From assembly GCA_021775775.1 (NCBI GenBank), contig JAJFHF010000054.1, forward strand, positions 1 through 38,240: 38,240 bases of DNA, given 5' to 3'. Position 1 is the first letter of the stretch. Every line of letters starts with the position of its first letter. Position numbers and translations under genes: made by a program. Below the pieces are notes generated by a model. It was not told the DNA's origin, did no database searches, and saw nothing but the letters and a program-made list of their open reading frames with translations. The stretch is from Hyphomicrobiaceae bacterium (GTDB lineage: Bacteria; Pseudomonadota; Alphaproteobacteria; Rhizobiales; HXMU1428-3). Below are positions 1 through 1,278 of this stretch, in pieces.

Positions 1-503
1 ATACGGCCGGGACAAGCGCTCAAACAAAAGACTTAGTAACCCCAGATCGATTTCCTGTCTTTAAAACCGGCAGGGGCGGAGAATATACCTATCATGGCCC
101 TGGCCAACGGGTGGTCTATCTCATGCTAGATCTCAATCAAAAGCGCAAAGATGTCCGTTGGCTCGTACATGAAATGGAAAGTTGGATCATTGATGTCTGC
201 GCCGCATTTGAAATTAGGGCAGAAAGGCGCGAAGGCCGTGTTGGTTTATGGGTGCAACACCCCTCACAAGATCCACAAAGAGAAGACAAGATTGCTGCCA
301 TTGGCATTCGATTGCGCCGTTGGGTGAGTTTTCACGGGCTGAGTATAAATCTAAACCCTGATCTTGAACATTTCTCAGGCATCGTGCCGTGCGGCATATC
401 TGGCCATGGCATAACAAGTTTTCATGAGCTTGGGGTTAATGTCTCTATGCAAGAGCTTGATGAAGTTTTGCAAAACCAATTTACACACCGCTTTCTCCCT
501 TAA
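1..503 (+). CDS. lipB: Octanoyl-[acyl carrier protein]:protein octanoyltransferase LipB, 5'-truncated
   Basis: LipB moves octanoyl groups from acyl carrier protein to lipoyl domains, the first step of lipoate-cofactor synthesis in the cytoplasm. The ORF track starts at an internal GTG (111), but the frame is open to the window edge (codons begin at base 3). The upstream translation carries the family signature [12 protein letters not shown] followed by VVYLMLDL. Further on are a lysine in [13 protein letters not shown], a position expected for the catalytic Lys, and the catalytic cysteine motif [11 protein letters not shown]. About 167 residues are visible, so roughly a fifth to a quarter of the protein lies outside the window. 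It converges on the minus-strand metalloprotease gene across a repeat-bearing spacer. The family call is very secure. Confidence 0.96.
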
Positions 504-516
504 GCATCGTCCCATC

Positions 517-628
517 ACGAAAAAGGAAGCGAGCTTAGCGAGTGAACATGACGCCATAAGCGTCCGGCGCTTAGCACCCCGCCCTCGCAGGCTCCTGCCC
601 ATTTCGGGCAAAAAATAGCCGTGAGAGA
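517..628. repeat. Intergenic palindromic repeat, copy 1
   Basis: This is the first of two diverged, same-orientation copies in the lipB-metalloprotease spacer. It shares with copy 2 the left edge ACGAA-AAGG, the core GGCGCTTAGC, a CCTCG block and the right edge GCCGTGAGAGA. Inside it are its own short hairpins: GACGC-cataa-GCGTC and TGCCC-atttc-GGGCA. No ORF is credible here. It resembles a REP-like or structured intergenic element; I do not recognise a named family. Confidence 0.6.
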
Positions 629-646
629 TATACAAAATCGCTCTAA

Positions 647-752
647 ACGAAGAAGGGAGTGCTCTTTTTCAGAGCACGCACATGGCGTAGCCCGGCGCTT
701 AGCGCCGCCCCTCGGAGGCATTTGCGCTCGCGCGCAAATTTGCCGTGAGAGA
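647..752. repeat. Intergenic palindromic repeat, copy 2
   Basis: This second copy shares edges and core with copy 1, but its hairpin arms differ in sequence and are again self-complementary: GTGCTCT-ttttc-AGAGCAC (about 659-677), GGCGC-tta-GCGCC (about 693-705) and ATTTGCGC-tcgc-GCGCAAAT (about 720-739). Keeping stems while the stem sequence changes suggests the fold matters, in DNA or RNA. No T-run follows on either strand, so it is not a simple Rho-independent terminator. Confidence 0.6.
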
Positions 753-762
753 AAACAGAGTA

Positions 763-1278
763 TTACGGCACCAAACAGTTGGTAAGATTCTTTGCCCGCG
801 TTTCCCCATCTTTATGATGAGCAGAAGCACGCCCAAATTTACGCATATCACTTTGAACATCGACAATATCTTGAAGCGTAAAGTCACCGCGATGGATCAA
901 GGTTCGAAGGGCATAACAATCAGCTTCTTGTTCTACCTCAACCCCTGACACACGCGCATAAAGATGGCCCAATACATGATGCCCACATTCATGCACCACA
1001 AAAAATTTCTGAGACGCTTTACTCAGTTCTTTAAGCCGCTTTATATTAAGAATAATCATTGGCCCCTGCACCATACCATGCATACGCATAAAGTCAGAAA
1101 AACCCACATCATTTAAACTATCATTGCGAACATTTAAAACAGGACGTCGACGAGCATCAATACAATCAGATTTGAACATCTCAATTTCATCTTGCTCACC
1201 CGTTACATTGGCAAGCCCATGGACAGGTCTCAACAACAAGACCACCAGAACCTGTGAAAGTATAATATACCATCGCAT
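763..1278 (-). CDS. Secreted HExxH zinc metalloprotease-like protein
   Basis: The 171-residue product starts with a probable signal peptide (about residues 1-23, hydrophobic VLVVLLL core). It carries a zinc-metallopeptidase signature: HECGH at residues 96-100 gives two His ligands and the catalytic Glu. EQEADCYA near residue 118 offers a third, Glu ligand in the ExxxD style of gluzincins. The late HKDGETRAK segment resembles the region after the third ligand in M48-like peptidases. The start is the ATG at 1278, with GGAG about 8 nt upstream. It would act in the periplasm or at the envelope. The protein is short, and its four cysteines could form disulfides. It follows pccA on the same strand after 125 nt, where I see no clear terminator. 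The substrate and exact family are unknown. Confidence 0.75.
   Translation of the reverse strand: MRWYIILSQVLVVLLLRPVHGLANVTGEQDEIEMFKSDCIDARRRPVLNVRNDSLNDVGFSDFMRMHGMVQGPMIILNIKRLKELSKASQKFFVVHECGHHVLGHLYARVSGVEVEQEADCYALRTLIHRGDFTLQDIVDVQSDMRKFGRASAHHKDGETRAKNLTNCLVP

Follow-up and report, generated by a model that had tools for sequence, protein, structure and literature searches.

Why should two neighbouring intergenic sequences share their edges and a core and yet differ in their hairpin arms, each copy keeping a perfect pairing of its own? The question arises between two convergent genes near the start of the window, by which we mean the whole stretch of 38,240 nt that was analysed, where a first-pass annotation had described two diverged copies of a structured repeat and had argued for selection on a fold. 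Both copies were found where that annotation had placed them, at 518-630 (+) and 648-754 (+), and they are members of an apparently uncatalogued repeat family of roughly 115 letters with five small hairpins. The common edges are present (ACGAAAAAGG at 517 and ACGAAGAAGG at 647; GCCGTGAGAGA at 619-629 and 742-752), as is the common GGCGCTTAGC core (at 566 and 694), and the arms were located at 596-600 (TGCCC) and 606-610 (GGGCA) in copy 1 and at 720-727 (ATTTGCGC) and 732-739 (GCGCAAAT) in copy 2. Arms that differ but stay paired had been noted for one hairpin; all five hairpins vary with compensation, and the third hairpin of copy 1 is slightly decayed (GGCGC/GCACC). The two copies fill the 259-nt gap between lipB, which ends at 503, and g763, which ends at 763, with a spacing of 15 nt from the end of lipB to copy 1. 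The features of the locus are as follows:

3..503, + strand: flanking lipoyl ligase/transferase gene, LplA-B_cat, here lipB (PF21948, E 1.5e-22)
518..630, + strand: copy 1, whole element, five hairpins (covariance model R1, 101.1 bits, E 1.9e-23 in the genome)
518..526, + strand: copy 1, unpaired 5' edge CGAAAAAGG (conserved columns 1-9 of alignment A1)
529..544, + strand: copy 1, hairpin 1, GCGAGC-TTA-GCGAGTG type, tandem G.A
550..564, + strand: copy 1, hairpin 2, GACGCC/GGCGTC type
565..581, + strand: copy 1, hairpin 3, contains the GGCGCTTAGC core, partly decayed
580..588, + strand: copy 1, hairpin 4, short, G-C version of the flipping pair (A1 pair 81-93, CG 39 : GC 34)
590..620, + strand: copy 1, hairpin 5, TGCCC/GGGCA version
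621..628, + strand: copy 1, 3' edge GTGAGAGA (nearly invariant in alignments A1 and A4)
648..754, + strand: copy 2, whole element, five hairpins (covariance model R1, 98.5 bits, E 9.2e-23 in the genome)
648..656, + strand: copy 2, unpaired 5' edge CGAAGAAGG
659..677, + strand: copy 2, hairpin 1, fully paired GTGCTCT/AGAGCAC version
684..692, + strand: copy 2, hairpin 2, short GGC/GCC version
693..707, + strand: copy 2, hairpin 3, CGGCGC-TTA-GCGCCG
708..715, + strand: copy 2, hairpin 4, short, C-G version
717..744, + strand: copy 2, hairpin 5, ATTTGCGC/GCGCAAAT version
745..752, + strand: copy 2, 3' edge GTGAGAGA
763..1278, - strand: convergent flanking gene g763, without a Pfam family, conserved in congeners

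Copy number and arrays

About 142-147 copies of the element are present in this draft genome of 2.7 Mb (Hyphomicrobiales). BLAST with copy 1 as query gave 72 genome-wide matches, and iterated nhmmer on the loci around matches raised the number to about 93 copies; the covariance model R1, built from 75 full copies with the five-hairpin structure set by hand, found 142 copies in the genome at E<=0.001 and 147 on the loci taken around genome matches, while the core pattern matched 28 times against zero for a reversed control. The genome-wide search that the annotation had proposed as its own check thus returned about 145 copies, which were studied in the sequence stretches around matches rather than across the whole genome. 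The element measures 107-120 nt, or about 170 nt (range to 175) in a long form, and its copies fall into 90 arrays, of which 50 hold one copy and the others are tandem runs of two (25), three (14) or five (1). Three contigs of this assembly begin within copies (C112:1-85, C122:2-77 and C151:1-26), so that the assembly is interrupted by the repeat, and more copies probably exist than were counted.

Two further sequences accompany the element. Another palindromic repeat, about 40 nt long (AGAGC..TGAATTCA..GCTCT) adjoins many copies and forms composite mosaics with them (examples in flanks: L073:2125-2163, L150:136-180 and L082:2287-2326); most of its own copies are too diverged to match the strict pattern used for it. 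A weak conserved extension, AAGCTMNCNATA, precedes the CGAAG edge in most copies at about -12 to -1, and its occurrence both in tandem spacers and before single copies suggests that the true 5' end lies about 12 nt further out.

Fold and covariation

Each copy is a row of five hairpins, in the order CGAAGAAGG edge, hairpin 1, NACAT linker, hairpins 2 and 3, a short hairpin 4, hairpin 5 with a 4-nt bulge, and GTGAGAGAAA edge, with GTGAGMGAAA as the terminus. Alignment A1 was made by MAFFT blind to structure and the fold was then set by hand, from an RNAalifold prediction onward; alignments A2 and A4 were fitted to the model and therefore lean towards pairing. Among 75 distinct copies, pairing held in 94.9% of cells and double changes occurred in 19 of 29 pairs, double-change cells numbering 250 against 74 in shuffles (none of 500 shuffles as high), and pairing fell to 26-48% when partners were slid. 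Distant copies, described below, had double changes in 25 of 29 pairs, again with 0/500 shuffles as high. The element keeps its folded shape despite the letter changes. A lack of further copies and of covariation had been named as what would speak against the earlier proposal; covariation is strong both among copies and among relatives and, with the copy number, supports selection on the fold.

The hairpins differ in their evidence and in their variation. Support for hairpin 4 consists of one strongly covarying pair (C-G in 39 copies, G-C in 34). Hairpin 1 carries a tandem G.A/A.G flanked by covarying pairs in 48 of the 75 copies and G-C/C-G in its place in about 19; 5'-CGAG-3' against itself is a context that forms sheared pairs in both RNA and DNA. 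The tandem G.A form is dominant only in this genome, and in those congener copies that were read the first hairpin is paired throughout. Hairpin versions combine almost freely (Cramer's V 0.03 to 0.32; H1 vs H4, 0.03), which makes the copies mosaics. The long form, seen only in this genome among the loci examined, comprises about 18 copies (L146:2421-2593, L068:2139-2312, L167:1356-1518 and about 15 more) with a 58-nt insert in the loop of hairpin 3; this insert can form GATCAGC/GCTGATC, has 87-100% identity among most copies and varies far less than do the surrounding hairpins. For an outer stem that would enclose the element from end to end, the mean best helix between the ends was 3.24 against 3.13 with ends swapped between copies (9 of 200 swaps as high), an end pairing that is at most marginal and copy-specific. 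A short peptide read from AAGG...ATG was rejected: although AGG and CATG never vary, hairpins of different length put the sequence after ATG into different frames.

We infer that the + strand, single-stranded, is the form that matters, because of the tandem G.A in hairpin 1 and the excess of G-T/U over A-C wobbles. Wobbles are few overall (1.8% of cells in this genome), with G-T 71 against A-C 50 in this genome (p=0.07) and 45 against 19 in the distant copies (p=0.0016); these results are weak and their p-values optimistic, the rows being related and not independent.

Position relative to genes and turnover

With genes called by a simple codon score rather than a full gene finder, 68 arrays had both neighbours classified: 39 are flanked by convergent genes, 28 by co-directional genes and 1 by a divergent pair, whereas the other neighbouring gene pairs at the same loci comprise 15 convergent, 142 co-directional and 37 divergent (Fisher test, p=3e-16 for the convergent excess and 9e-5 for divergent pairs). 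All but one of the classified arrays (67 of 68) face at least one gene 3' end, the facing stop codon lying at a median of 17 nt from the element 3' end (n=67) and 55 nt from the 5' end (n=51). Beside co-directional genes 23 copies run with the gene and 20 against it. No recurrent gene family was found among the neighbours that adjoin copies, and a partner gene beside the element was rejected for that reason. Intrinsic terminators were likewise rejected, a stem followed by a T run occurring in 1 of 147 copies on the + strand and in 0 on the - strand. One distant copy (L137:1501-1617, -, in genome G133) has the 23S rRNA gene on one side and the 5S rRNA gene on the other and shares their strand, and should therefore be transcribed with the rRNA operon.

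Comparison with congeners shows gain or loss of copies at gene 3' ends from one species of the genus to another. The order lipB, g763, pccA is kept in four congeners, in which no element was found near lipB and the gap between lipB and g763 is roughly 15-65 nt (estimated from alignment ends) against 259 nt here. Because the gaps are short in all four, the window site is by parsimony an insertion rather than a loss; the relatives are too diverged at the gaps for a target duplication to be defined. Further junctions that are filled here are empty in another species, or the converse (L063 vs L183, L082 vs L184, L075 vs L179), and among those filled in two species one holds the element in opposite orientation (L144, L128) and one in identical orientation (L066, L130).

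Distribution

The element extends beyond the genus in a patchy manner, over many families. Five genus members gave 24-25 matches each among 25 candidates scored. R1 detected it in 30 genomes out of 150, representing 20 of 89 genera, when the order was sampled evenly, and in 7 of 385 genomes in a sample of the class, where R2, a cross-family model built from 39 distant copies, detected it in 29 of 385 genomes (20 of 277 genera). In a phylum sample of 399, of which the share of other classes was not given, all 13 positives were alphaproteobacteria. Exact patterns matched in metagenome-assembled genomes (MAGs) named Hyphomicrobiales, Rhodomicrobium sp. DHS20C08, Methyloligella sp. DHS20C07, Anderseniella, Devosia and others. 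In the distant copies, hairpin 2 is still followed by CGGCGC-TTAT-GCGCCG, hairpin 4, hairpin 5 and GYGTGAGMGAAA, in that order. Carriage by phages or plasmids was considered and rejected for want of convincing BLAST matches, and an exact-pattern search of viral contigs, of a kind that misses many copies, found none.

Origin and maintenance of the element

A RAYT-type transposase, which the annotation had suggested looking for, was found neither in this genome nor in three of four congeners: the Y1 transposase PF01797 is absent here (95.5% complete) and in G033, G110 and G141, and is present in G075, one of five genus members searched. A RAYT-driven REP was rejected on its absence here. Retro-mobilisation was rejected as well, there being no reverse transcriptase (PF00078) in this genome; it was also absent in six of the seven other element-bearing genomes searched and thus occurred in one of eight. 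We consider it somewhat better than an even chance (a probability of roughly 0.55) that these are non-autonomous, structured intergenic repeats dispersed through the genome, REP/CIR-like in kind but forming a family of their own, with a fold under selection, probably for mobilisation. The folded + strand might be recognised by a trans-acting enzyme, as RAYTs recognise REPs, although this is a guess, the cognate enzyme not having been found. The fold would more likely serve the element's own spread than a neighbouring mRNA, because copies sit either way round relative to the neighbouring genes, and an effect on host transcripts is hard to credit for a strand-specific fold without a preferred orientation. 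Insertions may survive only where no gene or promoter is broken, which would produce the excess between convergent genes; a useful function at these junctions would produce the same excess.

Such a function could be that of a cis-acting RNA element of 3' UTRs which blocks exonucleases or aids the end of transcription for both convergent genes, its copies being kept for their use. That all but one of the 68 classified arrays have a gene 3' end on one side or both, that the fold is strong with a modest excess of G-U over A-C, and that a row of hairpins would act from both sides are all consistent with it, but the 23:20 orientation beside co-directional genes sits poorly with a fold that looks strand-specific, the copies are not intrinsic terminators (1/147 on +, 0 on -), and four congeners do without a copy at the window site; we regard this function as doubtful. 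The marked excess of arrays between convergent genes, a setting in which positive supercoils accumulate, could also point to an element acting on supercoiling or the nucleoid at the level of DNA, as a cruciform or a protein-binding site of the kind proposed for gyrase-binding BIMEs, and both its neutral orientation and the few wobbles (1.8% of cells in this genome) would fit. However, the tandem G.A in most first hairpins is expected to stabilise one strand only, and stems that change sequence freely leave no fixed protein-binding sequence besides the edges and linkers, which makes a DNA-level role quite improbable.

Mutation rather than selection might also maintain the pairing, if template switching between arms perfects palindromes and recombination shuffles arms among copies. 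The near-independence of hairpin versions (H1 vs H4, Cramer's V 0.03) agrees with this, and the nearly 50:50 flip of C-G to G-C fits arm copying, but the G.A tandem is kept and not corrected in 48 of 75 copies, and the same edges and succession of hairpins recur in different families and throughout the class; we hold a purely mutational origin to be very unlikely. A more unusual proposal, speculative and rather unlikely, is that the five-hairpin + strand is the substrate of a novel non-Y1, non-retro mobilisation system guided by fold more than by sequence, its copies swapping entire hairpins, or else that a widespread alphaproteobacterial structured RNA is produced from many copies.

Comparison with known repeat families

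From the searches made, the family appears to be new to the sources consulted, whereas its kind (REP/CIR-like) is already known. Rfam 15 gave no match in the window at the gathering score (only RF00114, 11.7 bits vs 39.5), which rules out a known RNA family, and three core strings found nothing in the texts of papers, a search of open literature that leaves room for an earlier description. Elsewhere in the loci, L167:3850-4013 (-) matches the rpsB sRNA family RF01815 with 39.8 bits against a gathering score of 40. The family is abundant and occurs across the class, covariation proves its fold, and Rfam has no entry for it; as a repeat in which contigs end it confounds both sRNA prediction and the assembly of MAGs.

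R2 gave no significant match in pSymA and pSymB of S. meliloti (best E 0.003 and 0.2), in which we presume RIME/ABC repeats to occur, and the comparison with these is thus indirect. RIME, ABC mosaic elements and Sm-repeats are palindromic intergenic repeats of rhizobia, the same order as the host (PMC2573895). The CIR elements of alphaproteobacteria (Caulobacter CcrM-associated intergenic repeats, CIR1-4) are about 110 bp long and exclusively intergenic and, like the element, are structured, occur in many copies and have no terminal inverted repeats (PMC2229807). Their descriptions set the element apart, since CIRs have GANTC and two long arms with a linker, whereas the element has five short hairpins, with GANTC in 6 of 147 copies and 2 of 39 distant copies. 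ERIC/IRU, RUP, NEMIS and other MITE-like repeats are non-autonomous and structured, with 100-200 bp (PMC2229807), but in these repeats a stem joins both ends, whereas the ends of the element pair at most marginally and copy-specifically.

REPs share with the element a high copy number, a position at gene 3' ends, convergent and co-directional sites, and clustering. Many copies, lying mostly at gene 3' ends and avoiding divergent promoters, make the element REP-like in the broad sense, and in copy number, intergenic 3'-end position and fold the earlier label of REP-like holds; it fails on the definition of a REP, since the element lacks a GTAG/CGTC tag and has five hairpins where a REP has one, and a RAYT is absent from this genome and from three of four congeners. 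REPs are single hairpins of 20-40 bp with an unpaired GTAG or CGTC tag (PMC3733652), whereas the element spans 107-175 nt with five hairpins, and within 24 nt of an end GTAG/CTAC occurs in 6 and CGTC/GACG in 14 of 147 copies, none conserved in the alignment. The CGTC super-family of REPs, found mainly in alphaproteobacteria, is also without a known transposase (PMC3733652), and the element poses the same question of how fold-dependent repeats without one spread, a question that filled and empty sites in relatives, together with a usable model, make testable.
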